A stretch of 64,000 nt of DNA from Prorocentrum cordatum (taxonomy: Eukaryota > Sar > Dinophyceae > Prorocentrales > Prorocentraceae): contig CAUYUJ010014549.1 in the NCBI GenBank assembly GCA_963575745.1, positions 551,501 to 615,500 on the forward strand, written 5' to 3'. The notes under the pieces are model-generated. The model was not told where the DNA came from. It was given only the letters and a program-made list of their open reading frames with translations, and searched no databases. How positions within the stretch are numbered: position 1 is the first letter of the stretch; each line of letters starts with the position of its first letter. The position numbers were made by a program, and so were the translations under genes. Shown piece after piece: positions 16,647-56,030 of the stretch.

Positions 16647-17052
16647 ATAGATTGCGGCAAATTGCCGCTGGCACATGAAGCCATCCAAGCACAGTGGGCC
16701 ATTTCGCCGGCGGCTTGATTCATCAACGTAGTAAGGCAGTGGTATCGCTTCCACTCATCCGTTATCTTGTTGCGGAAGACAAGAACCGCTGATATTTCCT
16801 TGGCCTGGGTGTATGCCTGGGAATCCGTCACGGCCTTCAATAGTGGCGGCCGAAACGGATATGGCTGAGAAGGCAATGATTTAATAACGGCGCAGAAGTT
16901 GCGGTAGCAAACGGCGTCGTTGGACTGAGTAGTCATCATCGCCAAGTTGTGGCTGTTCATTTGGGCATGCCAAGCCGTAGGAGATGTCTTGTCGTAGGAC
17001 TCGATCCATTGGTCTGCAGAGAGAACAACGATGCCTCTAGCCTTCATGTGAC
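16244..17052 (-). pseudogene. Host locus, segment directly downstream of the giant insertion
   Basis: An open minus-strand frame of 267 codons (SADQWIESYDKTSPTAWHAQ, then helical segments) ending at an in-frame TAG (16244-16246). Its apparent ATG at 17047 is part of the 8-bp target-site duplication and is not a true start. With the giant element removed, the codon series at 56031-56023 joins AAG at 17044 without a phase change, so this is the interior of an interrupted protein. Family unknown. Confidence 0.65.
17045..17052. repeat. 8-bp target-site duplication, left copy
   Basis: CATGTGAC directly abuts the left terminal inverted repeat at 17053. The identical octamer abuts the right end at 56023-56030. 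Confidence 0.92.
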
Positions 17053-17078
17053 TTAGGGTCGGCCTCCCTGTAACTTTG
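17053..17078 (+). repeat. Left terminal inverted repeat
   Basis: 26 bases identical to the reverse complement of 55997-56022. It is followed by CTTAGAG, also shared with the other end after a 10-base offset. Confidence 0.9.
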
Positions 17079-17124
17079 CTTAGAGCCTCCTGCCGCTTAT
17101 CCCCTGGCCCTGCCGCTTGTCATC

Positions 17125-17420
17125 TGGCGTTCCCAGAGAGGCCTGCCACTTATCTTTTGGCGTTCCCAGAGAGGCCTGCCACTTATCTTTTGGCGTTCCC
17201 AGAGAGGCCCGCCACTTATCTTTTGGCGTTCCCAGAGAGGCCTGCCACTCATCTTTTGGCGTTCCCAGAGAGGCCTGCCACTTATCTTCTGGCGTTCCCA
17301 GAGAGGCCTGCCACTTATCTTTTGGCGTTCCCAGAGAGGCCTGCCACTTATCTTTTGGCGTTCCCAGAGAGGCCTGCCACTTATCTTTTGGCGTTCCCAG
17401 AGAGGCCTGCCACTTACCCT
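17125..17420 (+). repeat. Left subterminal 33-bp tandem array, 9 units
   Basis: The unit contains GGCGTTCCCAGAGAGGCC followed by TGCCACTTATCTTTT. Nine nearly identical copies lie in a row, degenerating into shorter CCTGCCGCTTAT words up to about 17500. The same unit is present inverted at the right end. Subterminal repeat arrays of this kind often serve as transposase binding sites; that role is inferred. Confidence 0.9.
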
Positions 17421-18387
17421 GCCGCTTATCCTGCCGCTTATATCTTGGCCCTGCCGCTTGCCCTGCCGCTTATTTCCGCTTATCCTGCCGCTTATCTTTT
17501 CCTACTTCGAAACACGCTGTTACACTGTTTGGGGCCCACGGTCCGCCACTGTTCGGGGCCCACGGCCCACGCGGGGTAACATTCGACGACGACAACGACG
17601 ACGACGCACGACGCCGACGACGATGGCGACGACGACGACGACCGACGACGACGACGACGACCGACCGACCGACGACGACGACGACGACGACGAGGCACGC
17701 GGCGGCGTGCGCGCGCGGAGGCACGCGGCACGCGGCACGCGGCGGCGCGCGCGGGGCGCGCGCGCGGCCGGCGGCGGTGGCGACGACGACGGGCGACGGG
17801 AGGACGAGGATGAGGACGAACGGAGGACGGAGGGCAGGTGGCAGGTGCAAGGAGGGGAGGAATGAAGGGAAAGGAGAAGGCGGTGAGGAGGCGCGAGGCG
17901 CTGCGGAGTCAAAACAAGGACCCAACACCACAGGATTAGTTAGAGGTAAGGGGTTGTGTGCGTGCGCGTATGTGGGCGTGGCACTAAACGTACCTCCAGC
18001 GGAGAGGCACAACGCTGAGCGGCCGCGATGAGGAGAGGGAAGATGGAAGATGGGAGGAGGCTTATTTTGAGGAAGGGTCAGGGGTCGGATGACGAATGGA
18101 GGATGGAGGAAGCAAGGCAGGATGCATGGAGCAGGGGAGCTGGGGGGAAGATGAGGAGGGCGAGGGCGTGGGAAATAGGAGAAGGGAGAAGGCATGCTCG
18201 AGACTGGAGAGGGAGGAGGAGGAGAGGAGGAGGAGGCATAGGGCATAAGAACAGCTGCACTCTGCACTCCCGGCCCCGCCCAGTCGGAGCCGCTAGCGCC
18301 AGGCCCCGGGCTAGGCGCCAGGCGAGTGACGCCCCAAAACCGAATTGCCAAAATACGAGGCTGCCGGCTGCCTGGGCAGCTGGGCAC
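17421..18387. other. Left subterminal low-complexity region, no gene
   Basis: It contains a duplicated GGGGCCCACGG word (about 17530-17570), a GAC/ACG trinucleotide tract (about 17580-17700), a GCGCG-rich tract (about 17700-17780) and purine-rich sequence to 18240. Long open frames here are artefacts of the triplet repeats. The minus-strand gene next door ends at 18388. Confidence 0.6.
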
Positions 18388-19513
18388 CTAAGCTGAGGCT
18401 GCCGCGGAGGTGCCATGCTCGGAGGATGGCGGCGGCTCGCCCTTCTCCTTGGTGCTGAGCTGCTTCAGCGCGATCCCCAGCGGGGCCGGGATAGTGAGAT
18501 CCTCGACGGTCTTAAGGCACTGCTCGGCCATGGCGTCGCGGGACTCGCCGGGCTGAAGGTCCCTCCAGATCGTCTGCGAGCAAAGCAGAATGCCCATCAC
18601 GTTATGATAGCTCGCGTACTCATCGCCCGTGAAAGTCCCGATGCAAGCGTCCAGCTTGGCAACGGCAATCTCGATGTTAATCGTGTCCTTGATGGTGATG
18701 GCAGTCTTGCGAATGTTATCCAGGCAAGTCTTGGCCTTCTGGGACTTCTTGAACGTTCTGTAGTACTTCACAGCTTCCTAGCTCTTGACCAGATCCATGA
18801 TATTGTTGATGCGGTCGGTCGTGTAGTCGCCCTCGTTGCAGAGGGAAGTCAGTTTAGTCAGTTTTTCACCCGCCATCAGCTTCTGGAGTTCCGTAATCAG
18901 GCTGGCGCCGGCCGCAGCGCCCGAGTCGAGGACCGCCGTGGCTGCGGCATCGAAACGATCGCGGCTTACCTTGAGGATGGACACCGCCCGCTCAAGAGCC
19001 CTGGGCCCCAGGCCCTCAGCAGACTTCATCGAGTTGACCATCTTCTCCGCGAGGGCAACGAACTGAACGCTGGAGTGGATGTCCTGCATCGTTTTGACAT
19101 GCGCATCACCCTTTGAAGTCAACTCTGCGTTGTTAAAGGTTTTAGCCACATCATCGCTCTTCACCACGCGTTGCCCCACGTGCGAGATCGGCTGGGTCAA
19201 GATGAGCAGGCCTGCACGGAGCGCAGTGGGCGAGGTGTTGCATACGAAACCCACGCCGAGCCATTTGGCGAACTTGTCGAAGTAAACGTCCAAGCGGGCG
19301 AGGCTCGCCAACTCGGTAACCTCGCCAACCTTCTCCTTCAGAAAGATCACCTTCAAGAAAGTAGTCGTTTCCTCATGTAGGGCCAGTTCTGGATCAAGAA
19401 CTGCATCTGGCTGACCCTCAGTCTGCTCGGGCGCCTTGTCGAGCCACTCGGCCACCAGCTTAGCGAAACTAGAGGGGCAGATTGTTTCAATGCCCCTAAA
19501 TCCTACCTCCCAC
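18388..19513 (-). CDS. Last exon of the unknown cargo gene, with an in-frame TAG
   Basis: It starts after the AG at 19514 with WEVGFRGIETICPSSFAKLV and is mostly helical. At 18778-18780 a TAG follows MDLVKS. The same frame then continues for about 125 more codons (EAVKYYRTFKKSQKAKTCLD and onward) to a stop at 18388. The downstream part has ordinary coding composition, so the TAG is either a nonsense mutation, a readthrough site, or the true end with fossil sequence behind it. Confidence 0.55.
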
Positions 19514-21447
19514 CTGTCGTCAGTTACCAAGGGCTCCCAGCTTCGCGCTTCGCGCTGCGCGAAGCGCGAAGTGCGAGTGACTTCGCGCTCTCGCGCCGCC
19601 TCCCAGGGGAGAAGAGGAGGATGAGGAATCGGAGCCGAACCGCGAAGCGCGAAGCGCGAATAACTTCGCGCCCTCGAGGGCGCCCTTGGTTACCCGCCCA
19701 GGAGGAGGAGCGCGGGGGATCGGACAAGGAGCTGGGGCAGGAGACGGGCAAATGAGAGGAATGAGGAAGGGGGATGGGGTTGGAGGAGAAGAGGATTGGA
19801 GCAGGGAGCAGGGGCCCCCACGAAACCCAGCACACAGAACCTCTGGAAGGGCGCGGTCGTCTGCACGACCTTCGTGGAGAGAGCTTTCGTGACCTCAGTC
19901 CTCATCCAACCCTCGAACTTGGCAACCTCTTCCCCAGCCCAACTTGCGACGCGCGCGGCTCTGGGCCCGAGCTGCGCAAAGTAGTCCGCCAGACCCTTGA
20001 CCTGGGCCGTCCTGACATCAAGGCACGTCTTCTTCTTGGAGACCTCGGCGATGGCGGGGATCAGCTCCTTCAGATGCTGCGCGGCCACCTTCCCCGACTG
20101 AAAAAGCTCGTCGACCTCCTTGGCCTTATCCACGCCGGCAATGTCGTTGATGCCGAGCTGCTTCATCGACCCGAACTCCGTGAGCGCCTTGTCGAAGCTC
20201 TCGGAGATCTTGGTCAAAAACTCGCCGTCGACGTTGCCGCTGAGCCCGTCCGTGAGTTTCAAGACTGGGTTCATGCGTGTAACCGCGTCCTCTAGGGCGA
20301 CCTTCTGGCGAGACCTGCAGCACGCAACGATGGAGTTGACGATGGCGTCTCTATGGTCGAAGACCTGCTTCATCTTGCTCGCGCTGAGCTGCTTGTAGCC
20401 TTCGGAAAGCTTCCCATCGAGCTCCAGCGCATTGATGCAGAAAGTCTTGAGATTTTTGCGGTTGTCGATTACGATAGGGCCACGGAGATCAGCGTCAGTC
20501 TTCGGCGCGAATACTGGCGCAGTGGAGATCGACGACACCAGCTTGTCAAGGTTCTGCGAGCACTGGAGGTCTCGCTTGGACTGCAACACAAGCTCGTCAA
20601 TCTTGGCCGTGATGTGCCGCCCGGCGGGCAGAAAGAAGCAGATCTTATGGAACCTGTGGTTGCGATCCTCGTTGATCTTGGTCTTCGCAGCCGCTCCCTC
20701 TGTCAAAGCCCGCGCCTTCTCCTCGGCCGGGAGCGAGTCCCTGATATGAGGCATGCATCCCATTACCTTTGCCATCTGGTCCAACTGGGGCTTGAATGTC
20801 ACGGTCTCCTCGACGTTCTCGATGATCGTCACGGGCGCAGTGAGCGCCTGGAGCGTTTTCATCATCATGTCGAGTGACTCGGGCTTGTTAACATCCGTCG
20901 TCCTGACTGTGTCCAGGAGCTGCCGCATGATTAACTTCTCCTGGATGGGGGCAGCCTTCGACTGATCGTGAATCTGAGCCTGCAACGCGACTCCGTGTCC
21001 GCTTCCACCGCCGCCGCTCCACTGCACCACCGCCGTGGCGCGTTCGAAGTCCTTGTCGGCAATGGCCTTGGTGAGGGAACGGTGCAGAACGGAGAACGTC
21101 AGGGACTCTGGAATTGCCAATCCCGAAGTACGAGCGGTTACCATGGCATCGAGCAAGCCGTCGCCGCCCTCCTTTCAGGGCGGGCGGAGATATCAGAGAA
21201 AGAGCCCGCGCCAGGGCTCAGGACTCAGGGCCCACGGCCAAAACGGCCTAGGGGGGGGCAGGGCGAGTAGGAGGAAGGAGGAAGGCGGGGGTCTCTGGGG
21301 CAGTGGGCAGTTGGAAGATAAGTATGAGGAAAATGCGAGGAGGCGGGAGGGCGGGGGCGGTGTCCAGCTCGCAGCTCGATGTCCCCCGCTTCGAGCTTCG
21401 ACGCTTCGACCCCTGGAGTTGCAATTAGACGTTTGTTGTCATCTGTA

Positions 21448-21478
<31 letters not shown>

Positions 21479-23272
21479 ATCTATAAGCAGTAATTCGCTT
21501 ATCGCCTATACACTATACAACGTGGTTTTGTCAAATAGGGCGGGGGTGGGTCGTGGAATATCTAATATCAAATGTCTAGCGGCTAGCAAGGGGCGAGGGA
21601 CGAGGGACGAGGGATGTGTATTGTCGTATTTCGGAAGGGCTAATTCGACGCCCGACTCCCGACTCCTCCTGCTTGCTCTGAAGCTTGGTGACCAGTGGCG
21701 TAGCAGCATCGATCTTGGAATTGATATCGTTCATCTCGCCGAGGAGCTTGTCGACGCTGTCCAAGGCGCCGCTAGCGCCAGTGATCAACTCCTCCGAGCC
21801 CGACGTGAGGATCTTAATCTTATCAGGTCCTAGAGCGATGTTCATCTTCTTCTTGAGTGAAGTCATGTTGGTCGTCGTGACTCCGTGGACCATCTGCTCG
21901 TCTTCGAGCCTATGGATCACGCCCTGGCACTCCAACAAGGCTGCCTTTGCGAACTGCTCGGCGCCCGCTCGTTTCTTGCGGTCGCCGCTGCTGCCTCCGC
22001 CACCACCGCCACCCGAGCCGCCGCCTGCACCGCCTGCACTGCCTCCTGCGCCTCCGCGGCCTCCTCCGCCGCCGCCGTTGCCGCGGCAGTTACCGCCGCC
22101 GCCGCCGTCGCCCTCATCGCCATCGCCGCCGGCGCTGTTCGAGCTCTTGCCACCTTTAGACTTGACGATGGGTCCGAAGAGAGCGTCGTAGGGGTCATAG
22201 TCCTCGTCGTCGCTGTCGGCGCCGGCCTTCCTCTTCTTCGCGTCGGGCAGCTTGACCTTCACGTAATTGCCATCCGCATCGCCCGCCGCTTTAGTCGCGT
22301 CGTTGCCCTTGGTTATGGTTGGCTTCAACTTGGCCGCTACCTTCTTGAAGGCCGCGTCAGCGTCGTTCGCCGGGAGCTCGTTGTGCACGGTGACTTCAGC
22401 GCCAGATATCGAGCTCAGCTCAATGCACCCATCAATGAACGGGATCGTTGATGAGAGTGCGATTCCTGGAAGGAGCGCCCGAACACAGTACACAAGTACA
22501 CAGTGAGCGCGAGGAGCAGAGAACCGCTCCTCTCTCTCGAATCTCGAATCTCGAACGAAGAACGAAGAACGAATAATGAAGAACAAAGAATGCTGACGGG
22601 TGAAGGGTGAAGGGCGAAGGGTGAAGGGGCGAGAGGATGAGAGTTGAGAGTCCAAAGTCTAGTGGCAACTGGCAACTGGCAGCTGTCGACTGTCGAACGA
22701 GTAGGAGCAGGGAGGAGAGAGGAGGGGAGACAGGAGACAAGAGACAAAGGAGGGGGCGGGGGAGATGGGAGATGGGGCGAGGATCGAGGAGTCGAGGGGG
22801 GGATGGCGCTACGAGTTCATTGTCCAGTGTCCAGTCCTGTGAGGTCGGTGTTGCCATGCCTGTACTGCGTGCTGAAAGACGCAGGCAACTTCTTGCTGAA
22901 GTGTTCCTCGTAGATCGCCTTCGGCCAGAATACCCCGCACTTCATCTTGCCCCCCAGCTTGAGAGTCTCCGTGGCTTCAACAGTCTTCCTCGACTTCTTC
23001 GCGCGCCGCTTCCCAGAATGATCGGCGGCGTCAGATTCCTCCTGCTCCTGTCTGAACCGCTTCTGTCTCTCTGGTCCATCCCTCTCGATGTCCTTCTCAA
23101 GCTGCTTCCTCTCATCCTTATCAGCGTAGTTCCACTGGAGGTAGCTCGTGCACTGCCGACACTGACAGCCCTCTCCGCCGCGAGTCCAGGTTACCTCCAA
23201 GCTGGAACGCCCGCATCACTTGCAGAACTTCTCCCTGTTGGAACCCTCGCTCCCCGAGTTGGATACGGGCAT
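18388..23272 (-). CDS. Multi-exon cargo gene of unknown function
   Basis: Exon 1 runs from ATG at 23272 to about 22830. It has a zinc-binding-like cluster (FCK, TGA, CGRSS, then CQCRQC) and a basic, helical, KKSRK-rich middle. The next exon, about 22450-21669, has a Lys/Asp-rich linker and a long Gly-rich tract followed by a helical end. The following exons are 21171-19841 and 19513-18388, both largely helical (for example LDMMMKTLQALTAPVTIIEN). Phase-consistent introns are 21172-21668 (GA donor, AG acceptor) and 19514-19840 (GT-AG); the second contains a short inverted-repeat element. Two in-frame stops interrupt otherwise continuous coding text: TGA at 23216-23218 and TAG at 18778-18780. 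It is therefore a recent pseudogene, a recoded gene, or incorrectly modelled there. No known family recognised. Confidence 0.55.
19523..19693. mobile_element. Short inverted-repeat element, copy A (in an intron)
   Basis: The element spans 19528-19688 and is flanked by GTTAC at 19523-19527 and 19689-19693. Its ends are CAAGGGCTCCC and GGGCGCCCTTG, an 11-bp inverted repeat with one mismatch. Inside are GCTTCGCG/CGCGAAGC foldbacks. A closely similar copy lies at 54640-54793. This copy is inside the 19514-19840 intron, 14 bases from its 3' splice site. It looks like a non-autonomous MITE or introner-type element. Confidence 0.85.
19841..21171 (-). CDS. Central exon of the unknown cargo gene
   Basis: The exon starts with EGGDGLLDAMVTARTSGLAI after an AG at 21172 and ends ...TTAPFQ plus two bases of an Arg codon at 19841, completed by the first base of the next exon. 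It is almost entirely alpha-helical and heptad-like, without recognised motifs. It lies between two introns whose phases match its ends, which is the main support for the model. Confidence 0.6.
21446..21475. repeat. TA dinucleotide microsatellite
   Basis: An uninterrupted alternating TA run inside the GA-AG intron at 21172-21668. Confidence 0.9.
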
Positions 23273-24380: not shown

Positions 24381-25186
24381 TCACTCGTCGCTCTCGTCGC
24401 TGTCGCCGTAGCCCATGCCCATGAGATTGTAACCGACAGCCATGGCCCGTTGTGTGTCAGTGTTCCGCGGCATGGCACGAATGCGCAAGCGCATCTCGCC
24501 GAGGAACACACTCAACACCACCTGCGCGACCATGTAGGCGGATGAGTCGAATGCATTGCCGGCCATGTTCTTCAAAAACGAAGAACTGAACTCCATCATG
24601 CGAGCGGCGACCTCGCTCGCCCGCGGCTGCGGCCCGAGCAATTCATCGACGAGGAAACCCATCATCATCAGATGTTCCACTCCATGGGCAAGCCTGCCTT
24701 TATGAGCTAGATAAACCAGGCTCTTCTCGGTGAGGCGCGCCGAACCATGCTTGATGAGCTCGCGGGAGCGACCGAGGGACATGTTGACATCTACGGTGCT
24801 CGGCTCATCCTCTGGCAATGACAAGTTGAGTCTCTCCAGCATGTCGAGCTGCCTGGCGGCCAACGCCTTCAAACCTGGATGTCGCGCGGCCGCGTCCTCC
24901 CCCCGGAACGGCGAGGGCTGCCACCAATCAGATCCAGCCTTCTTATTCCACACGGCGTGTCTGCCAGGCCATAAAGGGGCGGCCTCCTTCTTCTGTTTCT
25001 TCCGCGGCGGCTCAGCCGTCGTTAAGGAATTCATGTAGCCCTCTAGGATGGCGCGTCTCTCCGGGAGAAGGAACTCGTCCAAGGGGGCCGCAGGGTGGTG
25101 GGACAGGCGGGCCAATACGGCCTGCGCCTTCGCCGCGAACTCCTCCTGCGAGACGCCAGCGGCCTCGAGCAAATCGTTCTTGACAC
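24381..25186 (-). CDS. Cargo exon of unknown function with acidic C-terminus
   Basis: About 268 codons. The exon begins after an AG at 25187 (VKNDLLEAAGVSQEEFAAKA) and ends with GYGDSDESDE and a stop at 24381. A PPRKKQKKE stretch looks like a nuclear localisation signal. The rest is helical (RLAHGVEHLMMMGFLVDELL). It has no upstream ATG in phase, so an earlier exon must exist or the gene is truncated. It may be the 3' end of a separate gene or belong with the ankyrin-like fragments upstream. Family unknown. Confidence 0.5.
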
Positions 25187-25199
25187 CTTAGAACCCCCG

Positions 25200-39500: not shown

Positions 39501-41912
39501 GCCCAGCGGCCCAAGGCCCAACCCAAGACGGCCCAACCTAACCCCCCAACCCCCAACCCCGCCCCGCACCCCGCACTTTCGTATGGTTGGGTCCCCCGTC
39601 CCCCGCCAACTTCCACCTTTCTTGCGGCGTTGGGGGTTGGGGGTTGGGGGATTGGGGGATTGGGGTGCGGGGCGCGGGGGTGTTGGGCGTCGGGCCATCG
39701 GCCATCGGTGTGCACTTTGCACCCGCGGCGCGCATCGCTGTCCTTTTAACTGTTGCTTTCTGCTCTCTGCTTTCTTCATTGCTGCATGCTGCGTGCTGAT
39801 TGCTGATTGCTGATTGCTGCTTGCTGCTGGCTGTTGGCTGCTGGTTGCTGGCTGCTGGCTGCTGGCTGCTTGCTGATTGCTGCTTGCTGATTGCTGATTG
39901 CTGCTTCCCGCTTGCCGCATGCTGCTTGCTGCTGGCTGCTGGCTTCGGTTGATCTCCCCATGGGGCCACGACGCGCGTGACGCGTGGAATGTGGAATGCG
40001 AGGTGCGAGGGGTGGCGTGCCGAGATGGGCGGTGGGGGCGCGGGGCGCGGGGCGCCACTGAGATTTCGGATTTCGATACTCGATGCCCGATGCCCGATAC
40101 TTCCGCTGGAGGTTGGAGCTCCCAGCTCCCTGTGGGATGTGGGAGGTGGGAGCTGGGAGATGGGAGTCCTGAGTCCTGGTCCTGGCTGAGGGCTGAGGAG
40201 GAGGAGGGAGGAGGGAGGAATGAGGAGGGAGGAGGGAAGAGGGGGAAGGAGGAAGGGGAGGAGGGAGGAGGGATGAGGGAGTAGCGAGGAAGGCAGAAGG
40301 CAGGAGGCAGGAGGCAAGACGTTGTACGTAGTGCGCGTCGCCGCCGGCTGCCCCTTTCAAAACGAAGACCCAACGCACCGCGGGGCAGCAGCAACGGCGG
40401 CAGCAACAGCAACAGCAACAGAAACAGAGCCCGGCAAGCAACGATCTCGAATCTCGACCCTCGTCCCTCGACCCTCGAGGCAGGCGGCAGACTACGCAGG
40501 GGGCAGGGGCGCAGGGGCCAGGCGCTAGGCTCAGCACGCATACGACAGCTGAGCCTTCAAGAGATCGAGGATGTCGTTGAAGACCTTCCTAGTCCTGTAG
40601 CGGGCAGCGGGCGGCGGGCATGCTTATCCCCCCTTATCCCCCGCCACCCGCCTCCTCCTCCTCCTCCTCCCTCCTCCTACGCCCCGCGCCTCCTCCCTCC
40701 TCCCTCCTCCCTCCCCCCCCTTCCCCCTTCCTCCCCTCCCCCTTCCCCCTTCCTCCTCCTCTCCTCCTCCGCCTCCTTCTTCACCCTTCACCGACATCCA
40801 CATCGTCGTCTTTCTTCTCCTCGCAGCGCGCTCTGCCACTGCCCATTGCCCGCTGCCACATGCCGCGCCCTGCTCAACGCTCGACTGCCAACTGCACACT
40901 CCAACGTCCAACCTCCACCTCCCTTCTCCTCATTCCTAATTCCTATAATCCATACCCCATACCTCCTACCTTCTACGTGCCAGTTGCCAGGTGCAAGGTA
41001 TACCCCGCCCCTCTCCCTCTTCCCGCCTCCCACCTCCCACCCCCCACCCGCATCCCTCCTCCCTCCTTCATCCCCCTTCCTTCTCGTAATATCGTCCTCA
41101 TCCTCCATCCTCCTCGACCCTCGGCCCTCGACTGCATCTCCCCCTTCTCCCTTCTCCCTTCTCTCTTGACTCTTGACTTTAATGCTGCATCCTGGCTGCT
41201 GATCGCTGATCCTCGTCGGCCTCCCGCCCCCTCCTCATTGTTCATTACTCATTACTCATTGCTCATTGCCCTCCTCATCCCTCATCCCAAGACCCAAGAG
41301 ATGCAAATCGAATCCTGTGTGTCCCGGCTGCAACGCAATACATGTTGCCTTCGTCGCAGCAGTGACGGTTCACGCGAGCCACGTCGTCGCAGGGGAAGCC
41401 AGCTATGAGGCCATCGGCCTTCTCTATCATCTGCTCCGTGTCCGAGATGCGGTCGGTCGCAATGGCCGTCTTGAGGTCGGCTGCATCTGAAAATATTGAA
41501 GGGCAGTCTGGGTGCAGCTTCATGATGAACCTCTGCTTGCAAGGATCGTTCTCGCAAGCCCAGACCTGCCGACGCGCTAGATCAGGACCTGGGGCGCGCG
41601 ACTCTGAACTGCAGACTGCGCGCGCCAGGGCCTTATTGCACCGGACAGCCAAATCCGTGCCACTACAGATCGTGCTGAAAGAAAACCCGCCGAGAGTGCT
41701 AATTGCCTTCATGTCATTCGGGTTCAGCCTGGCAACCAAGCGCTTAGCAAGCGCGGCCTGCCCGCCCTGGGGCGAATCGATGACCACCTCGTCAGGCTGC
41801 TGCCGCGCGAGCAATTGGGGCAGCGGCCCCCGAAACGGAGACTTCAGCGCAATGCGCGGTCGCCCCGGCGGCGGCCTCCTTGGACATGGCCCGACGCGGG
41901 CCGCGGACAGCA
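34993..41912 (-). CDS. Split C5-cytosine DNA methyltransferase-like gene
   Basis: At least three exons: 41912-41315 (motifs I and IV), 40588-40544 (linker helix) and 35227 to about 35000 (motifs VI and VIII). Motif I is FSTICSGTDLAV. A motif II/III-like stretch is VWACENDPCKQRFIMKLHPD. Motif IV is GFPCDDVARVN, with the catalytic Cys preceded by Pro. Junctions keep phase: 41315/40588 makes an Arg codon and 40544/35227 makes a Ser codon. Introns are 40589-41314 (GA-AG, 726 bp) and 35228-40543 (GT-AG, 5.3 kb). Target-recognition and C-terminal motifs IX-X were not found, so the gene may be incomplete or have further exons. Whether the zinc-finger exons at 43-44 kb are its 5' part is undecided. 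Confidence 0.62.
36300..36625. repeat. Poly-C minisatellite
   Basis: Units of GATAGCTGGCAGCC separated by C-runs of variable length, ending in nearly pure C. Related AGCTAT words follow at 36740-36830. Confidence 0.85.
37720..39312 (-). CDS. Single-exon protein with two U1-type zinc fingers and acidic repeats
   Basis: About 530 codons from ATG at 39310-39312; the frame is open further upstream, but that is 5' leader rich in GC dinucleotides. Residues about 120-200 contain imperfect repeats of ERWRGVKDKD alternating with acidic text. Two U1-like fingers follow: FVCVYCDTLVG with DSHVAKAKH, and FICMHCDIQVQ with DHVQTARH. A Lys/Arg-rich block (KKRGKRRRKK) looks like a nuclear signal. The C-terminus is globular (SLVSEMGKHNIVLKFTIRGE). 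A relict spliced-leader-like sequence lies 113 bases upstream (39426-39447). It is nested in the methyltransferase intron and intronless, so it is most likely a retrogene. Confidence 0.72.
   Translation of the reverse strand: MSASSGMMTPHPSQLTPSRRQQIADLGMLIEEAGELAAAASRTSRRGAFVRLRKFGGMMSETGSDARRELARRMSPLRSRSPSRRQPRCIVLKTLSLKDKEFVERDQGASGSGSERWRGVKVAKDEDTGDEERWRGVKDKDDATADEERWRGDKDKDKDDDERRRGGKNTYTGYTGDNEFWFVDDSDAGGDSERSRRGARNSDDDVRVGHDSGDDERADGEPPMPRPGKDFPMLQDYSTNDPFDETAEGFVCVYCDTLVGEQDRDSHVAKAKHIRYAKQGIHSFLKLSEEGPSLWRQEIHVNNNMFICMHCDIQVQEWWKLYGVDQDHVQTARHKQGTAHIVEPISPKPWEGQRQRRWEDAMRRALDTRRCERNSKSAAPANLISTKKRGKRRRKKGNEGDECEPAGEDNKGVVDNKGGVPEDQKGWAGHKPKDKADAFDTLRTIESQQSESGSISITDQVWLRRLSAEHPDSNSCPHGPSASLECVSLVSEMGKHNIVLKFTIRGEDRSDVWSVQADECIEAMFPKTSD
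39426..39454 (-). other. Relict DinoSL-like sequence, possibly two overlapping copies
   Basis: The minus strand reads CCGTAGC followed by TCATAGCCGTTTTGGCTCAA. The second part matches the DinoSL core at about 17 of 21 positions, and the first part repeats its 5' start. Stacked relict leaders are known from repeated rounds of trans-splicing and retroposition in dinoflagellates. Confidence 0.65.
39455..40530. other. Low-complexity part of the methyltransferase intron
   Basis: Repeated CCCAAC/GGGGTTGGG words (39540-39670), then TGCTGAT and TGCTGGC repeats, then GAGGAGGGAGG tracts. No gene seen. Confidence 0.5.
40544..40588 (-). CDS. Short methyltransferase-like exon
   Basis: A 45-nt exon reading KVFNDILDLLKAQL plus split Arg and Ser codons at its ends. 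In C5-methyltransferases the segment between motif IV and motif VI carries a helix of this kind. Acceptor AG at 40589-40590 and donor GT at 40542-40543 both give continuous phase. Confidence 0.5.
41315..41912 (-). CDS. Methyltransferase-like exon with motifs I and IV
   Basis: The minus strand reads a basic/Pro-rich lead, then TLGGFSFSTICSGTDLAVRC, VWACENDPCKQRF, then KADGLIAGFPCDDVARVNRH. CSGTDLA resembles the cofactor-binding motif I and GFPCDD the catalytic motif IV. Spacing (about 95 residues) is somewhat long for the family. The exon ends in the middle of an Arg codon at 41315 with a GA-type donor. Confidence 0.62.
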
Positions 41913-44948: not shown

Positions 44949-47900
44949 TCAGATGACATACAACAGGAGCTTGCTCACAAAGAAGAGCATGTGTGGATCG
45001 GCCGTGCTGGGGAGGAATCCAGCCGCCACCTGCCCAGGGACTGAAACCCTGCGCCCCACCGAACACGTGGCCTTCCCCCTTCTCGCCGAGGAAGCCCTCG
45101 TCGCCGAAGAAGCCCTCCTCGCCGAAGAAGCCTTCCTCGCCGATGAAACCCTCCTCGCCCCACGCCTCAAGCGGCAAGCGGCAATCTGCCTCGCCGAAGA
45201 CCGAAGAACGACGAAACCCTCATCGCCGAAGAAACCCTCCTCGCCGAAGAAAACCTCATCGCCGAAGAAACCCTCCACCTCCACTCCCCACTCCTCGCAC
45301 ATCACTCAAGCCTCATGCCTCAGGCCTCAGGCCTCAGGCTGCAATCTGCAATCCCAACTCATTGGACAAAGCCTGCAAATCTGGCTTGAATGTCTTGTGC
45401 TGCTCCGCGTTCTCCTTTGAGTACTTGCAGCCCTCCGCGAGCCAAGCAATGCAGTGATTCACCGTGTGTGCAAACCCGCACTTGATATCTATGAACAACG
45501 AGCACTTGGAATCATGCCCTGGCAATCGGCAATATGCCTTGAGGCTGCGGCCCGACGGCAACGCCCTGATGTGACCCACCTGGGGGAGAGCGACAATGGG
45601 GCAAAGTGCTAATGCCCGATGCCCCCGCCCCCCCTGGCCCCTGGCCCCTGCGGCATCGCACCGACGGGTTCGAACAAGATTGACGATTGGCGCTCATGCC
45701 GCATACCGCACGGCACGTCACCGCAACCACATTGCACATTCGCACCGCGCACCATGCTCCATGAAGCACATGCTGCACGGACGGCCTGGAAACCCGAAGC
45801 CCGAAGCCTGGAACGATGTGCGAAGCACGAAGCACAACGTCCGACGTCTCAAACATCAAACCGAATCCCGAGTCCGAGCAGCTAACGACGGGCGACGGTG
45901 CAATCTGAGAGACCGAGAGGATGAGGGGGGCGGGGGTCGGGGGTCGGGGCGTCAGGGCGCCAAGTGTCAAGACTCAAGACTCAGAGCGAATCAGCAAACC
46001 ATATTCCATATTCCATGTTTCACATGCCCGAACCTTGTGGCCCGTAGGAGTGCAATAGCTCCAGCCCTTCTCTTCCGTGAGCCCCATGCGCTGGCAGAAC
46101 TCAACTGGGTCAAGGTTCAAAGCGAAAGGAGCGGGTGGCGGTGGCAGCACTGGCGGCACTGGTGGCGCCTTGGCTGGGGCGGCTGGCGGTGCCTTGGCTG
46201 GGGCGGCGGGTGGCGGCACTGGGGCGGCTGGTGGTGCCATGGCTGGGGCGGGGCCCGCGGGCTGCGCCGCGTCCGGCATCGGCTCCGCCTTCGCCTTTGC
46301 CTTTGCTGAGGCCGAGGCTGCCGCTGGTTTCGCCTTCGCCTTGGACTTGGCCTTGGCAGCCTTATCGAGCTCATTGGCCTCCTCCTCAGCTGCCGCCTTA
46401 CTCTCCTTGTCTGCTGCTGTAAGCATGCCATAGATATCCTTGATCTCTTGCCCCAGCTCACCCATGGCGCCCGGGTCGAAGCCGGGGGCGAGGGCGACAT
46501 CGTCTTCGATGGCCTTGATGCCCGTGCCGTCAGGGCCAACCTCTGGCCCTGGCTCAGCCCCAGCTTCATGGCCTGCTTCGGCTTTGGTTGTCGCCTTCTT
46601 GCGCGGGAGCGCAGGCTCATCATCATCATCGTCGAAAGCATCCATCATGTCGACGAAGTCCTCGCCGCCCGCCTCCATCTCATCGTGAGCGCCATCCTCC
46701 AGGGCCAAAGCAGGGCCCACTGGAGCGCCATCCGCGAGCGCCAGAGCCACCGCATCGGGGTCCACGACGACGCACTCAAAGTCTGGGTGCACTTCTTGAA
46801 TGACGAAGCGGTCCCCGACCATATCGACGTACCGCAAACGATACATTGATATACGCGGCATCTTCTGGCCCGCGTTCTCGATCTTCTGCGCCAGCTCAAC
46901 TGCAAGGCGGCCCTCTGTGATCCAGTCGATACCACCAACTCCCTGATCGTCCAGCGGGTGGCGAAGCTCGGACACTCTGTCTACAACGGGAACGCTGCAT
47001 ACGTCAACCTCTAAGCCTCGAATGTCCGCGAGCTGGTGGGCAAAGGGGGCAGCGGGGGCGCAGCGGGCGAAAGACTGTTGAGACTGGAAACGCCCGTGTG
47101 CCCCATGGGCGAGGGAAAGCATCAAGAAGACCGAATCCACCTCGCCGTCCAACTCGCAGATCATGACGAACAGCGCCTGGACTTTGGATACGGCATTTGC
47201 CTTGGGATCCACTTGGAACACCAGCAAATCCAAACATTCCAATATCAAATCATGGAATGCGAGACGCCGCTCTGAATTCGAAGTTCTGCACAGACTGCCA
47301 CATTCGACGTCGTAGTTCACTACTGTTGGAAAGCGGGCTAGCGCGGACCAAGGCTTACCTGGCTGCGCCAGGGCGGACTCAAACTTCGCTTGCGCGCCTC
47401 GTATTCCCCCAGGTCTGAGTCGGGTGCCCTTCGGCAAGCTCCTGATATAGCTGTCCACGATCCCTTGGCCCAAGGGGATTGCCCTGTCCAGAGCCGCAAC
47501 CGCCTGGCTCCGCTGCACTACTTCGGACACTGCTTCTGCCGGCTGCGGCTGAAGGATCGGATTATCCGCTGGGGGCCCCAAGGAACCCTCTTGAACGGCC
47601 AGCCAGTCCACGAGAGACGCCACTTGGAGCGTCGTGGCGTTGCCGCCACCATATGGTAGGATCGCCGACTGTTGCGCCGCAGCTGCTGACGGCTCTACTG
47701 CTGTCGGCTCTACTGCTGCTGCCGCTGCCGCGGGGGCGCCCAGGGCCACTGGCCCAGGCGCTGCCGCTGAAGCGCCCGCTGCCTGGAAGGCGGAAGGCGG
47801 AAGGCGGAAGGCAAGGAGACAGGAGACGCGGAGGAGGGGGGGAGAGGAGAGAGTCGAGGAAAGAAAGGGCCCGAGGCCCGAGGCCCGAGGGGGAGGCGCC

Positions 47901-50900
47901 AAGGACCGCAACATCAGACGTCACGACGACGACGATGGATGACGATGACGCCTGACGTCGGACGACGACGACGACGACCACAGACCACGACGACGGCGAC
48001 GGCGGCGGCGGCTACGACGGCGACGGCGACTACGGAGGTTGTTGGTTTTTGGTGCGTTTTCGGCCTCTGGAAGCCGTTTCAGGGCTTCGGGCTTCGCGGT
48101 CATCAAACATCGACTCAGGACGAAAAGCTGGCCCTGGGGAAGTTGTTGGAACCTGGAACCTCGTGCTCCGTACTCCGCGCTCCTCTTTCCTCTTCCCCTC
48201 TTCCCTCTTCCCTCTTCCCTCTTCCCCTTGATCCCTGTTCCCTGTTCCCTGTTACCTCTTCCTCCTCCTTCCTCCTTCCTCCTCCTCCCCCCCCGCCCCT
48301 CCCTCTCCCCCGCCTCTTTTCTCGCCCCATTACCTGCCGACGTCTCTCCTGCCGATTCTTCATCGCGACGCTCTTCTCCAAGGCCGAATCCCGGCAATAG
48401 CGCTCCTCTCGTATACCGCATGCCCTGCCCGACGCCATTGCCCGGCAAGACGCCCCCCCCAGACGACGGACGAGGACTTCTGTCCTCGTCGTTTGTCGCC
48501 TGGGGGAGGCGACTCACGGGGCATTGGCGGGGCGGGGCAAGGGTAGACAGTAGACATGGCACTGGGGGGGGGGGAGGGGGGGAGGGGGGGGTCGGAAGAT
48601 CCTGCTCATCCTGCGGGAGAGCGGCCCACTCGCGCCGTATGTCATCCCACTGGCTAGCGTGCCAGCGCAAGCTCTCCCCCGAGAGCTTCCGGCGAAACAT
48701 CGCGTCGTCCCGGAAGATCTGGAGCGCCGATCGGGCCTGGACAAAGGGCAGAGGGAGGACGGAGAGGGAAGAAGGGAGGAAGATGGGGGAACGGGGAACG
48801 GAGAAATGAGGAGGAGGAGGAAGGAGGGAGGAGGGAGGAGGGAGAAGGGAGGAGGGAGGAGGAGGAGAAGGCGGAGGAGGGGGTGGGAGGGGGTGGAGGG
48901 AGAAGGAGGAAGAGGAGGAGGAGGAGGGAGAAGGGGGGAGGGGGGATGGCGGGACGGGGTTGGAAGTTGGAGGTTGGAGGGCAGAGGGCTCGGGGAGTGG
49001 GGGGGCCCTTCCCTCCTCACGCTCCGCCTCCTGCCGTTCCCCCTCTTGCTCCTCCTGTTCCGTGCCCCCTCGCCCTTCGCCTGGTACCGCGCGCTCGAAT
49101 CGTCTGGCCGGCGAACTGGCCCTGGCGCGTCGGCGTCGGGGGCGGGCGCAGCGGCAGGCAGTTGCTCGCCGACCGCTTGGTCGGGATTACCTGCAATCGC
49201 TGCGGCCTGGGCCGCGGCGTGACGCAACCTTGACATATGTTGCCTCGCCGCCTGCAAGTACGTCGCCTCACGAGTCGTGTAAGAGGACGCCAGTGATTGG
49301 CAACTTGTAGACTCCGAGCTGTGTCGCCTGTTCCAAGCGTGGCGCCACTCGACGCGCGCAATTCCCAGTCTGGTCTTCCTAGCGTAGAGCTGGTATGACA
49401 GGATCATTTCGGGGGTGGGCAGTTGCTCCTCCGACGTGGTTCGCGACCTGAGACGTCTTGCAAACCCTGGCCTCTTACAACATGGCAACTCATTCATGAA
49501 ATCCTTCGCGATCAATAACCGACGGGACTCTGACTCCCTAAGATCCCCTGCTCGAAGAAGCCTCCAAGGGTCTTGCTGGAGAGGAAGAATGAGCCTGCGA
49601 TGGACACCAGCACTGGCAACGAGAATACCCGTGCGGAACAGCCCGAGGAACTTCTGATGGTCGGCATTCTCGGAGGCGCACAAAGCACCCCAAGACGATA
49701 ACCCCAAATGCCTGTATAGGAACTGCAGCCGCGTGCCCCGGCCGCGGAGGAGAGCCGAGAAGTATTGCTGCACCGCTGTGAAAAATGAACGCTGCGGCTC
49801 CAGCGCGCCCAGCGCGCGAGGAGCAGCTGTTGGATCCTGCACTTCGCGCCCCGCCGCCAGGAGCCACGTCGTCAGCAACCTAGGCGGGGTCCCAAAGCCC
49901 AAAGCATAAGGCAGGGGGCGCTTAAATGTGAAAAGCAGCAACAAAACTTCTACTGGCGATCCCTACTCCACGCCCTCCTCCCTTTTTTCCTTCCCCCCTC
50001 CTCCCTCATTATTCATCATGCATTATCAATTGTCCTGCTTCCTCCCACCTCTTACCTCCTAATCCTTCATCCCCCCTTCGTCCCTCCTCTCCCTCCTCCC
50101 TTCCCCCCCCATCCCGTTGATGATCGGCCCTCGACCTGAGCGGCTCAATGACCAGGGCGATGATGATCACGTGCACCTGCGGCTCGAAAGAGTTCAAAAA
50201 CCCGTCGGCCTTCTTGATGCGAGTGCTCGTCACTGCCTTCATCTGTTCCTTGACCTGCTCCTCAATGTCATCATCTGGATTATGGCTCACAGGCACCACC
50301 TGGAACTGGGAGAAGGCAACCGTGAAGATACGCGGTAGAATATTCCAAAGGAGCACTCCTGGAAGCACGAAATCTATGCAACTCCCAACTTTGGTCCACC
50401 TAGACGCTACTGGGACAACTGGCAGTGAATTCAACAATAAGCCACGTATTGCCGCCAGAACCTTCTCTTTGCAACCATTTCGGCCACGCGACGAATCAGA
50501 ACAATGGTGTTTGATAATTGCATCCCAGGGGGCGCCCGTCAACAGACACTTGAAATCGATAGCTGCCCGAACGAACTCGCACCCAGGCCCCCGGAGAGAA
50601 ACTGCATCTGCGGGCGCCATGCTCATCAGCTGGTTGACGGTGTAATCCTTGTACTTAGTGGCGTTGGCATCTTCGTCGAAGGCCCTTCCCATGCCTACAA
50701 CGTTGTCAGCGGATTCGTGGGCTGAGCCGTGGTGCATCAGCAAGTATTGGCACAGCTCTGCCATGAAAGCTTGCCCCTCCTCGCTGGGCTGACCGCCGGG
50801 GGCGATGTCGAGATCGAGCTTCTTCTTAGCGAATGCTTCGCCCACAGCTCGATGCAATCTCAGAAAATATCCGTGAGTCCTCAGCGCAAGAGCCATGCTG

Positions 50901-52185
50901 TACATGGTAGACACAATCTTGCTGTCGACAGCGAAGAGAACACACCCGTGACCAAGGTGATTCTGATGCAGACAACAGTTGTTGTTCTCTCTCAAAGTTT
51001 GGAAGGAGTCCAAAGACCTCGCGAAAGCAATGAGCTTGTCACTACCGCTAGCGGCATCTGCTTCGTCCAGTATCATTGTCATGCCACCCTGATCACCAAC
51101 ATTCGCCAATATATTGCGCAACACTGCTTGTATTGGCCCAGTGAACGGGCCTCCAAAAAGTGCGTAAAATATTGATGCCGCATCTGTCGTCTTGACGAAT
51201 GCCGTGGGGATGACGAGCTCGACGTCAACGGGCTGAGCGACGCCTTTCCAGGCGAACGAAAGGCATATCCTGCATGCAAAACATTCGTATGTCGACGACA
51301 CTAGCGTCTTGAATTCTGGAACGACCAGCCGGAGACGTTCGCCCGTCTCATCCCACATCTCGTGCACCACTACTGCCGATGGGGGCGCAGCTCGCAGCGC
51401 CAGTGCAATCCTCTCTAGCATGCGCTGTTGGCCCCACATATATGCCATAGCACCCAACTTCTGGCAGCGGCTAACGGTCCTGGGGTGCATGCCGTGGATC
51501 TCGCCCATGGCAGTCAATGAGAACTTCTTCGCAAAAGCTGCCTCCATCATCTCGGACGTGGCATGCAGACATCTGCCGCCCCCCTTCTTTTGAACGACAA
51601 TCTTCAAGCCAGAATATCTCAACGCATTGCCAGTTTTGAGGGGGTCCCTCGGCCGGCGCTTCTTGTTCGCAGTCTTGGTGAGTCTCACGCGGACCCCTCG
51701 GCCTCCCTTGCCTTTCAGCTTGATCCCCGATGCTTCTAGGAACGCTGCTAGCTGACCTGCTTGCTGCTCGCTGTGGCTGTGCATCTGCTTGCTCATCTTG
51801 GCGTGCAGCATCTTGCGGCTCAGCAGCTGCCGCTCCTCCTTGCTTCCATGCCGACCTCCCCCCGCGCCTCCTCCTGCTGCGGCGCGCGCCGCTGGCCTGC
51901 GCTTCGGCTGGGCGGCCTGGGCAGGCACCAGCTGCTGCTGCACTGGCTGCTGCTGCGTAGGACCGCCTGGGCGCTGGGCGGAATAAAAAATACCCCCCTC
52001 CCCCCTCCCCCCTCCCCCATCCCCCCCCCCCCCTCTTCCCGCTTCCTTCTTCCTTCTTCCCCGGGTGGGCGGAGGGAGGAGGGAGGGGGGAGGGTGCAGG
52101 GGGAAAGCATCTGGCCTTGGGCGCGGATGATCCCTCCGAGCACGTCGGCGCCGTCGTCATCGGACGACGGCGCCGACCCCGGCAT
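44949..52185 (-). CDS. Multi-exon transposase-candidate gene of the giant element
   Basis: Phase-consistent exons are 52185-52116 (ATG at 52183-52185), 51966-50136, 49879-49081, 48736-48602, 48499-48334, about 48133-48040, about 47782-46034, 45579-45373 and 45029-44949, for about 1,700 codons. Residues about 172-196 look like a helix-turn-helix (AMGEIHGMHPRTVSRCQKLG). Candidate acidic catalytic positions lie in HEMWDETGERL (about 228) and MTMILDEADAASGS (about 325). CCLHQNHLGHG follows at about 354, and VASRWTKVGSCIDF at about 545 recalls the RW region of hAT-like transposases. The large last exons are Ala/Pro-rich with acidic DDDDDE and a Cys/His C-terminus. It is the largest gene of the element and the best transposase candidate. 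DDE assignment is unproven and the 48040/47782 junction unresolved. Confidence 0.62.
45070..45290. repeat. 18-bp-type tandem repeat in an intron
   Basis: Repeats of CGCCGAAGAAGCCCTCCT with small changes, inside the candidate intron 45030-45372. The open minus-strand frame through it (GFFGEEGFFGDE) is a consequence of repeat length. Confidence 0.8.
46034..47782 (-). CDS. Large Ala/Pro-rich exon of the transposase-candidate gene
   Basis: 583 codons. A globular N-terminal half (LDRAIPLGQGIVDSYIRSLP; CLDLLVFQVDPKANAVSKVQ; MYRLRYVDMVGDRFVIQEVH) is followed by an acidic DDDDDE tract, Lys/Ala repeats (AKAKSKAKAK) and Pro/Ala repeats (APAKAPPA). It ends GWSYCTPTGHK at a GT donor, joining in phase to VGHIRALPSGRSLKAYCRLP in the next exon through a 454-bp intron (45580-46033). 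Confidence 0.6.
50136..51966 (-). CDS. Catalytic-core candidate exon
   Basis: 610 codons, starting with a Gln/Ala-rich lead after AG at 51967 and ending in EPL plus two bases of an Arg codon at 50136. It contains the helix-turn-helix-like segment, the WDETGERL and ILDEADAASG segments, the CCLHQNH cluster and the SRWTKVG segment described for the full gene. It is uninterrupted, with no stop or frameshift, unlike the retroelement frames, which suggests recent activity or selection. Confidence 0.65.
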
Positions 52186-52189
52186 GGCC

Positions 52190-53310: not shown

Positions 53311-54639
53311 CTACCCAATGCACATATACAGATATGAGTAGCGAATGGGCCTAATCTCCAGCCCTCTTGCATCGTCTACTTTGTTATTCATATTCGAACC
53401 CAGCGAGTCGTGAATTGCCATCTTCTCGGCCGCCGCGCACTGGCGGTCTGGCATCAATGCCACAACATGCGTTACTTTATAGTCCAGGCAATGGGGGCGC
53501 ATATCTTTGTCGCGACGGCGACGGCCGTCGCCGTCATCGTCGAGAAAGCCAGGGCCACCTAGAAACCTCCACTTCGGATCAGACGTCGTGCCAATGTATA
53601 TTGGGCGGCGGCCCGCGCTCTTGCGCAAGTACCTCAAACGGGCGCGCCACTCCTCCTCGTGGACGTCTAGCAGCGGCTGGTGCACCACAATCCTAATGTC
53701 GTCTATGTCCTTGCACTGCTGGTGCACGTCGTCACGCGCCATCTCCCAGAGCACGCGATGCCGATTCTCACGAGACCGTGAACGCATCCGACGCATGGCG
53801 AGGCCTGTGCGATCATCAGGGCTCCTTCTGGGGCCTGCGCCAGCAGCAGCCTTCTTATCGGGGCCCCCATCATCGTCGTCGTCACTGGCGATTTTCACGA
53901 CCTCGCCGACGTCTTCGACTGCTGCAAGAAGCTCGCCGACGTCTTCGACTGCAGGCGGCGCCCATGCCGGGCTCTTTGTAGATTTAGTGCGAGCGCCGAC
54001 GCCATCATCATCATTGTATTGACTCAGCCAACTTTCATCACTGCTTTGACTCAGCATCGTCTGAGATGATGCTCCCGCTGCTCTGCCCTCGCCTCCAGCG
54101 ACTAGCGGGAGCAATGCACCATGGGCCGAGGAATGCGGCCCAGCCTCCTGGCCATTGCCGCCGCCGCCACCCACTGCTCTGCCGCCCATCTCATCCTGCT
54201 GGCCGATGACGGGCTTGACCTCCTCGACGTTGCCACCGCCGCCGATTTCATCAGCTGCTCTGACGCGAATCTCCTGCTGGTCGATGATGGGTTTGACCTC
54301 GCCGGCGCTGCCACCGCCGCCAGATGCATCAGCTGCTCTGGCACCCATCTCCTCCTGCTGGTCGACAATGTGTTTGGCCTCGCCGGCGCTGCCACCGCCG
54401 CCAGATGCATCAGCTGCTCTGGCACCCATCTCCTCCTGCTGGTCGACAATGTGTTCGGCCTCGTCGGCGCTGCCGCCGCCGCCATCGTGCTCGACGGCGC
54501 CCTGAATCCGCTGCCGCTCGCACCGCTCGATGAAGTCCTCGACTGCATTGGCCATGCAAGTCATCTCGTTCTTGCACTTTCCCTTGTTGACGGGTGGTCG
54601 GTTCTTGGCCGACGCAGGCGAGGGGGCCGCGCTGCTCAT
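53311..54639 (-). CDS. Single-exon protein with GIY-YIG-like C-terminal region
   Basis: 442 codons from ATG at 54637-54639. The N-terminal half has four imperfect repeats of about 30 residues (GGGGSAGEAKHIVDQQEEMG). A Ser/Asp-rich and basic middle follows (RRMRSRSRENRHR). The C-terminal 110 residues resemble a GIY-YIG nuclease: RRPIYIGTTSDPKWRFLGGP, later AAAEKMAIHDSLGSNMNN, giving YIG, a following Arg, a Glu in a helix and an Asn. Homology is by eye. No introns. A relict DinoSL-like sequence lies upstream (54836-54853), and a short inverted-repeat element has inserted exactly at the start codon, duplicating ATGAG. Probably a retrogene. Confidence 0.6.
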   Translation of the reverse strand: MSSAAPSPASAKNRPPVNKGKCKNEMTCMANAVEDFIERCERQRIQGAVEHDGGGGSADEAEHIVDQQEEMGARAADASGGGGSAGEAKHIVDQQEEMGARAADASGGGGSAGEVKPIIDQQEIRVRAADEIGGGGNVEEVKPVIGQQDEMGGRAVGGGGGNGQEAGPHSSAHGALLPLVAGGEGRAAGASSQTMLSQSSDESWLSQYNDDDGVGARTKSTKSPAWAPPAVEDVGELLAAVEDVGEVVKIASDDDDDGGPDKKAAAGAGPRRSPDDRTGLAMRRMRSRSRENRHRVLWEMARDDVHQQCKDIDDIRIVVHQPLLDVHEEEWRARLRYLRKSAGRRPIYIGTTSDPKWRFLGGPGFLDDDGDGRRRRDKDMRPHCLDYKVTHVVALMPDRQCAAAEKMAIHDSLGSNMNNKVDDARGLEIRPIRYSYLYMCIG

Positions 54640-54799
54640 CAAGGGCTCCCAGCTTCGCGCTTCGCGCTGCGCGAAGCGCGAAGTGCGAGTAACTCCGCGC
54701 TCTCGCGCCGCCTCCCAGGGGAGAAGAGGGGGATGAGGAATCGGAGCCGAACCGCGAAGCGCGAATAACTTCGCGCCCTCGAGGGCGCCCTTGACTCAT
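54635..54799. mobile_element. Short inverted-repeat element, copy B (at a start codon)
   Basis: The element occupies 54640 to 54793 or 54794, flanked by CTCAT at 54635-54639 and 54795-54799. It has the same ends and internal foldback as copy A, with one internal GCGAAGC unit fewer. On the minus strand the duplication is ATGAG, covering the start codon of the 442-codon gene, so either copy can supply an ATG. Confidence 0.85.
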
Positions 54800-54835: not shown

Positions 54836-54853
54836 GAGCCAAAACGGCTATGG
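54836..54853 (-). other. Relict DinoSL-like sequence upstream of the GIY-YIG-like gene
   Basis: The minus strand reads CCATAGCCGTTTTGGCTC, about 16 of 18 bases as in the DinoSL core. It lies about 36 bases from the original start codon once the short inverted-repeat element is ignored. Confidence 0.65.
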
Positions 54854-54864
54854 TGCATGCTGCG

Positions 54865-55015: not shown

Positions 55016-55029
55016 ACAGCGGCTTGCAC

Positions 55030-55510: not shown

Positions 55511-55547
<37 letters not shown>

Positions 55548-55585
55548 CGCGACGACCACGACGACCACAACGACTACGACCAACG
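55030..55585. other. Right subterminal triplet-repeat region, no gene
   Basis: Two AAGTGCTTGCACT-type repeats (55035-55075), several GATATATAAGCGGC repeats (55098-55160), then TCGTCGTC and GACGACGAC triplets up to the 33-bp array. Triplet-rich DNA is also found at the same relative place inside the left end. Confidence 0.6.
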
Positions 55586-55589
55586 AAGG

Positions 55590-55965
55590 TTAAGTGGCAG
55601 GCCTCTCTGGGAACGCCAAAAGTTGAGTGACAGGCCTCCCTGGGAACGCCAAAAGTTAAGTGGCAGGCCTCTCTGGGAACGCCAAAAGTTAAGTGGCAGG
55701 CCTCTCTGGGAACGCCAAAAGTTAAGTGGCAGGCCTCTCTGGGAACGCCAAAAGATAAGTGGCAGGCCTCTCTGGGAACGCCAAAAGATAAGTGACAGGC
55801 CTCTCTGGGAACGCCAAAAGATAAGTGGCAGGCCCCTCTGGGAAACGCCAAAAGATAAGTGGCAGGCCTCTCTGGGAACGCCAGATGATAAGTGGCAGGC
55901 CTCTCTGGGAACGCCAAAAGATAAGTGGCAGGCCTCTCTGGGAACGCCGAAATCATAAGTGGCAG
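55590..55965 (-). repeat. Right subterminal 33-bp tandem array, 12 units
   Basis: Same unit as the left array in reverse orientation (GGCCTCTCTGGGAACGCC core). Units next to the interior read AGTTAAGTGG and those nearer the end AGATAAGTGG, so the array has internal subfamilies. Confidence 0.9.
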
Positions 55966-55996
55966 CCCCCCCTGGGGCCCTCTAAGCAAGCGCGCC

Positions 55997-56022
55997 CAAA
56001 GTTACAGGGAGGCCGACCCTAA
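55997..56022 (-). repeat. Right terminal inverted repeat
   Basis: Reverse complement of 17053-17078 without mismatch; ends GGCCGACCCTAA. Confidence 0.9.
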
Positions 56023-56030
56023 CATGTGAC
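56023..56030. repeat. 8-bp target-site duplication, right copy
   Basis: CATGTGAC, identical to 17045-17052. Confidence 0.92.

Follow-up and report, generated by a model that had tools for sequence, protein, structure and literature searches.

The stretch of DNA analysed here, called the window, comprises 64,000 bp of contig CAUYUJ010014549.1 of the dinoflagellate Prorocentrum cordatum, with a GC content of 55-70% in 2-kb blocks. It contains a candidate transposable element of 38,970 bp (17053-56022), bounded by perfect terminal inverted repeats (TIRs) with 26/26 bases identical and flanked on both sides by the octamer CATGTGAC. Just inside the two ends lie inverted arrays of one 33-bp unit, in nine copies on the left and ten on the right (Table 1). 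A search of the window tolerating up to nine mismatches per unit found none beyond the two arrays, and three mononucleotide-shuffled windows gave 0 units; Tandem Repeats Finder places 9.3 copies of the left array at 17109-17416. The inverted termini, identical octamers and inverted arrays of the original prediction, which was made from the sequence alone, were thus all recovered. Between the arrays, the minus strand carries a series of open reading frames (ORFs), including a probable transposase in two predicted exons, the adjacent gene B and a fragment of a cytosine methyltransferase.

Table 1. Features of the element in the window. Ka/Ks, ratio of nonsynonymous to synonymous substitution rates against the diverged copy on contig C17970.
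Feature	Position	Strand	Ka/Ks
Left 8-bp target-site duplication, CATGTGAC	17045..17052	.	
Left (A-type) 26-bp terminal inverted repeat	17053..17078	+	
Left subterminal array, 9 x 33 bp, first unit +57 from end	17109..17405	+	
ORF, frame broken by one in-frame stop in the window copy	18391..19689	-	
Family-specific ORF	19693..21174	-	0.484
Conserved ORF	21579..22658	-	0.468
Conserved ORF	24384..25187	-	0.406
DNMT5-like C5 cytosine methyltransferase, N-terminal part, apparently truncated	41278..41799	-	
Gene B, directly downstream of transposase	45977..47920	-	0.339
Probable transposase exon 2, placed by homology to a single-ORF paralogue	49105..49887	-	
Probable DDE transposase exon 1 (WDETG, ExDAA, CxLH)	50102..51940	-	
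Right subterminal array, inverted, 10 x 33 bp, first unit +91 from end	55602..55932	-	
Right (B-type) 26-bp terminal inverted repeat	55997..56022	-	
Right 8-bp target-site duplication, CATGTGAC	56023..56030	.	

The P. cordatum genome (4,128,499,153 bases, 21,875 contigs) was searched with the 26-bp end, allowing up to three mismatches. The end was found at 26 sites and a reversed-pattern control at none. Twenty-four of the 26 sites pair inward, delimiting 12 elements of about 6, 26, 39-43 and 92 kb. Six are large, with lengths of 38,970 (window), 38,663, 39,450, 39,563, 40,288 and 42,660 bp; the others measure 25,910, 91,784, 6,009, 6,139, 6,147 and 6,189 bp. The flanking octamers agree at all eight positions in 10 of the 12 pairs, at seven in the copy on C19654 (contigs are given by such labels) and at three in that on C19265. 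Two tests proposed with the original prediction, the search of the same genome for paired ends and that for 8-bp duplications, therefore support it. The copies on C17564 and C20538 are one insertion on two contigs, their flanks and element being 98.8-99.6% identical. The C19265 copy has its right flank and right arm in common with C15809 (99.8-99.9%), whereas the left flanks differ and the left arm is only about 96% identical; because the right side is common but the left flank is another, C19265 is either a recombinant between copies or a chimeric assembly. The distinct insertion sites thus number ten; the 8-bp duplication is exact at nine of them and 7/8 at the tenth, and the six large copies of 38.7-42.7 kb occupy five or six separate sites. 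The two unpaired ends lie on C18981 (99117-107331) in the same orientation, 8,189 bp apart and with identical outer flanks, and this end was probably doubled by a tandem duplication.

The ends of the element are asymmetric. One A-type end, with 33-bp units starting at +57, and one B-type end, with units from +91, were found in 11 of the 12 elements; in C2158 one end was not typed as A or B by the script. The old C17970 copy has only 0 and 4 recognisable units at its ends. Two further loci were considered and set aside. The 91.8-kb copy on C19654 was rejected as a larger natural element because it includes a gap of 5,000 Ns and has a second element, 24,157 bp long, nested within it. A diverged relative of about 20 kb on C20754 (226200-246700) was not counted as an intact copy, since its left terminus is missing.

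To look at the target sites before insertion, 120 bases from each side of the ten insertions were joined with one octamer copy kept, and 40 of 2,493 candidate matches were scored. All 40 span their junction, and together they cover six of the ten sites, one of them weakly. The window site has 23 uninterrupted matches at 84-93% identity, 16 of which span the full 240 bases; C15809 has 11, C7335 and C114 two each and C17564 one, and the site on C19488 has a single weak match (80%, repetitive flank). No uninterrupted match was among the 40 for C18766, C19654, C2158 and C17970, which carries little weight because only 40 of 2,493 candidates were scored. In the matches the target DNA runs unbroken through the predicted insertion point. 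These sites are other copies of the target repeats, paralogous and not allelic. The window insertion site itself belongs to a repeat of which 23 other copies were listed.

The shared right side of C15809 and C19265, the single insertion on C17564 and C20538 and the duplicated end on C18981 might suggest that segmental duplication or faulty assembly had produced inverted ends by chance. However, ten distinct sites with different flanks, nine exact 8-bp duplications with one of 7/8 and the uninterrupted target copies leave this explanation almost no probability, and for the family as a whole it was rejected on the genome-wide pairs, the duplications and the uninterrupted sites. Defined inverted ends, a target duplication and dispersed copies, as required of class II elements, are all present. 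We consider it highly probable that 17053-56022 is a dinoflagellate class II (TIR) DNA transposon of giant size that carries many genes. Precise insertion, the 8-bp duplication and dispersal are observed directly, as are the derivatives, the selection on genes and the conserved gene order described below.

The outer 8.5 kb on each side of six large copies, and the 91.8-kb copy in full, were compared with the window. In these regions the large copies match the window at about 96-98% identity over long blocks (93-95% with the arrays included), and C17970 at about 80%. The transposase, gene B, the methyltransferase and the ORF at 19693-21174 keep the same order and strand wherever they were listed in large copies. 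The similarity of the four 6-kb elements, at three insertion sites, to the window is confined to the ends and a single short internal repeat. Among themselves they show 99.1-99.4% identity, with 99.9% between the members of the duplicated pair. By eye, the ORFs of the C18766 element look low-complexity, and no 6-kb copy is among the matches listed in protein searches with those same four proteins. The 6-kb elements are apparently recent, non-autonomous and non-coding derivatives, which would have been moved in trans.

Fourteen minus-strand ORFs were compared with the available parts of the C17970 copy, and nine were matched, with Ka/Ks values of 0.235, 0.265, 0.339, 0.406, 0.468, 0.484, 0.513, 0.622 and 0.268. 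For comparison, three control ORFs on the plus strand had values of 1.08, 0.77 and 0.31, the last within the minus-strand range. Five of the 14 have no C17970 match; four lie in or near the region outside the comparison, and the fifth, 53314-54795, lies inside a compared part. Against the close C19654 copy, 15 stretches with few differences gave values of 0-3.0, 11 of them between 0.5 and 1.1, a scatter expected from drift of individual copies. The stop that breaks the frame of 18391-19689 in the window is a sense codon in 6/6 other copies examined. The genome search with the 19693-21174 ORF listed eight matches, all within copies of this family. Ten minus-strand ORFs gave no Pfam model above the cut-off, and in 68 of the 108 minus-strand ORFs listed the Pfam matches were weak throughout, to coiled-coil, ankyrin and other models, the best of them with E 9.7e-4; PDB sequence searches with gene B, 19693-21174 and 37723-39441 gave no match. 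We infer that the genes other than those of the core described below are family-specific accessories. A GIY-YIG-like string was seen by eye near the end of the minus-strand ORF 53314-54795, and this identity was rejected, as neither Pfam nor PDB supports it.

Several observations favour another reading: simple repeats abound in the middle part (about 25-46 kb), Ka/Ks is relaxed among close copies, the C19654 copy contains the nested 24-kb element, and 53314-54795 lacks a match in C17970. They would fit a smaller transposon swollen by captured or nested junk, in which only the ends and the transposase function in moving. This seems unlikely to us, though it is the most probable of the rivals. 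Six copies of 38.7-42.7 kb, compared in their outer regions and through the genes listed in them, keep their ends and gene order at five or six sites; nine minus-strand ORFs show Ka/Ks of 0.235-0.622 against a copy diverged by 20%; and diverged relatives, too, have transposase and methyltransferase in this order.

The region 52.0-49.1 kb encodes a probable DDE/RNase H-type transposase, with exon limits predicted from homology. The two exons have Ka/Ks values of 0.265 and 0.235 against C17970, indicating purifying selection, and the motifs WDETG, ExDAA and CxLH are invariant in 7/7 aligned proteins with identities down to 25%; the alignment excludes the public protein P0006, which lacks two of the motif stretches. 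Among the matches listed, the coding sequence occurs on eight contigs that bear family copies. A protein search repeated with the alignment returned the same five relatives, and the transposase matched no Pfam family. The AlphaFold models are weak, with a pLDDT of 40.7 for P0004 with seven sequences and 57.2 for a shorter core; their strand order fits an RNase H fold, and in Foldseek eight of the first nine PDB rows for the weak model are RAG1 or Mos1. A transposase paralogue on C253 (73400-76400) occurs at nine places on seven contigs, and 45% of its length is 99% identical to P0006, a protein that two sources assign to different dinoflagellates, one to Prorocentrum cordatum and the other to Polarella glacialis. 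Since P0006 lacks the stretches bearing WDETG and CxLH, these motifs are apparently lost to splicing in its public gene model.

The size of the element, its TIRs and its many genes agree with an integrated Polinton or Polinton-like DNA virus (14-40 kb) with a diverged gene set, and integrated protist viruses of 14-40 kb have long been hidden by poor sequence conservation (PMC10120064). However, profiles of a capsid, DNA polymerase B or packaging ATPase did not turn up in the 68 minus-strand ORFs scanned of the 108 listed, although diverged capsids can escape such profiles. No relative of the transposase was confirmed in viral contigs or in bacterial or archaeal genomes. Short derivatives such as the four of 6 kb, which have the family's ends and 8-bp duplications at three sites, are typical of transposons. 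We regard a viral origin as improbable, and a transposon remains our preferred reading.

The ORF at 41278-41799 matches PDB chain 7r76_A (E 3.5e-5, chain residues 294-419), with TxCSGT and a later cysteine region aligned. The depositors label this chain Rad8; we take it to be DNMT5, and the aligned region presumably holds the first catalytic motifs of a C5 cytosine methyltransferase. Pfam and NCBIfam methylase matches are sub-threshold only, and those to mycobacterial phage methylases are weak (best E 0.08). No later catalytic motifs were recognised by eye in the minus-strand frames of 39.9-43.5 kb, where short spliced exons could escape. The ORF was listed in eight family copies, with a stop in two.

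More distant relatives reveal how these genes are arranged outside the family. Searches that scored part of their candidates gave at least 57 merged transposase loci and at least 107 merged methyltransferase loci; many of the latter may sit in retrotransposons, as dinoflagellate retrotransposons are known carriers. In sixteen cases a transposase and a methyltransferase locus are no more than 40 kb apart, where uniform placement predicts 0.12 such pairs, and in 16/16 both genes are on the same strand with the methyltransferase 4.5-18 kb downstream, as in the window. The first transposase list alone gave the same arrangement in 12/12 pairs. By their spacings there are nine to eleven independent arrangements, since certain pairs have evidently been copied from one another. 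The other 41 of the 57 transposase loci, the C253 group included, have no listed methyltransferase within 40 kb. At three of the four distant loci of gene B, a transposase relative lies 1.2-2.1 kb upstream. With 16 of 57 transposase loci followed by a methyltransferase on the same strand, the transposase, gene B and the DNMT5-like methyltransferase therefore look like an old core module and not like cargo. The methyltransferase gene, the 6-kb derivatives and the wider superfamily go beyond the original prediction.

A mechanism can be proposed from these features. The transposase would attach to the 33-bp units, arrayed in inverted orientation close to the asymmetric A and B ends, and the two 26-bp termini would be brought together in a synapsis. 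The element would then be excised and inserted through an 8-bp staggered cut. The most likely role of the methyltransferase would be to alter how the element or its copies are methylated, with a bearing on expression or recognition. This last step is the most speculative and is drawn by analogy with retrotransposons, for which self-methylation has been suggested (PMC5890265). As regards the cut-and-paste transposon of the original prediction, the ends, the duplication and mobility in many copies stand, whereas the cut-and-paste mode itself is our inference; the ends and the duplication suit a DDE transposase, but no excision footprint was seen, and the structural models are weak.

Among known systems, hAT elements also have subterminal repeats and a CxxH motif after the second D, and Mutator-like transposases, too, carry a CxxH-like motif. 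Pfam holds hAT, KDZ and MULE transposase profiles, and none of them matched the minus-strand proteins scanned. Duplications of 8 bp occur in hAT and Zisupton (PMC12730594). The element resembles hAT in this duplication, and differs in its size and in the missing hAT profile match. With Zisupton/KDZ it has TIRs in common and, as in Zisupton, the 8-bp duplication. Fungal KDZ transposons are associated with the DNA-methylation enzymes TET/JBP (PMC12730594), whereas the 39-kb element has a methyltransferase and not a TET/JBP dioxygenase. Mutator-like elements make 8-11 bp duplications, carry extra ORFs and commonly have TIRs of hundreds of bp (PMC6446971); the 8-bp duplication and extra ORFs agree, but the TIR is 26 bp and there is no MULE profile. 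Like the element, fungal Starships are giant gene-carrying cellular transposons; they are classified by a tyrosine recombinase (PMC12134995). The element differs in its TIRs, 8-bp duplication and probable DDE enzyme, and no tyrosine recombinase profile was found in the minus-strand ORFs scanned. Polintons reach 40 kb (PMC6431247), and Polinton/Maverick and Teratorn are also giant with many genes; no polymerase, capsid or herpesvirus profile was found in the minus-strand ORFs scanned.

Symbiodinium and charophyte retrotransposons carry DNMTs, those of Symbiodinium being Dnmt3 or orphan enzymes (PMC5890265). The Symbiodinium elements and ours are both dinoflagellate and methyltransferase-bearing, but ours is a nuclear TIR DNA transposon with a DNMT5-like fragment. 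The combination of DNA transposon and methyltransferase is not wholly new, because DNA transposons encoding DNMT in marine viruses are mentioned in the same source (PMC5890265). None of the open-licence papers listed in the literature searches describes the element, and the passages on dinoflagellate transposable elements in PMC11453091 do not mention such an element. It is a DNA transposon unusual in its size, gene content and transposase, and its family is apparently undescribed.

DNA transposition falls significantly above 6 kb of cargo, although 100-200 kb has been mobilised in artificial constructs (PMC6431247). With copies at five or six sites of one genome, a TIR element of about 39 kb is a natural exception to this limit. 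If true, the linkage of transposase and methyltransferase would widen the pattern known from dinoflagellate retrotransposons to include DNA transposons of the nucleus, and whether such a transposon methylates itself becomes directly testable. We give roughly even chances to a still broader proposal, in which these elements are one lineage of an undescribed superfamily of giant dinoflagellate DNA transposons, with a heritable transposase-gene B-methyltransferase core in fixed order and with transposition coupled to self-methylation; together with a 24-kb TTAA family, giant DNA transposons would then be a substantial force in dinoflagellate genomes.

Two side observations were made. Outside the element, the minus-strand frame at 61211-64000 of the window and nine other ORFs are long and have no Pfam match. 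The element nested in the C19654 copy (2425433-2449589; 24,157 bp) has the inverted ends TTAATCCAGAAGCCGCATT and sits at a TTAA that carries no insertion in the window copy. It contains ORFs of up to 1,061 codons, five of its ORFs lacking a Pfam match. It belongs to a second, far more abundant family of giant DNA transposons. The genome has 232 + 238 occurrences of its end (470 ends), with 0 for the reversed control, and in a listing of 100 of these sites, opposite ends stand 24.0-25.6 kb apart in at least nine pairs and 0.2-54 kb apart in others.

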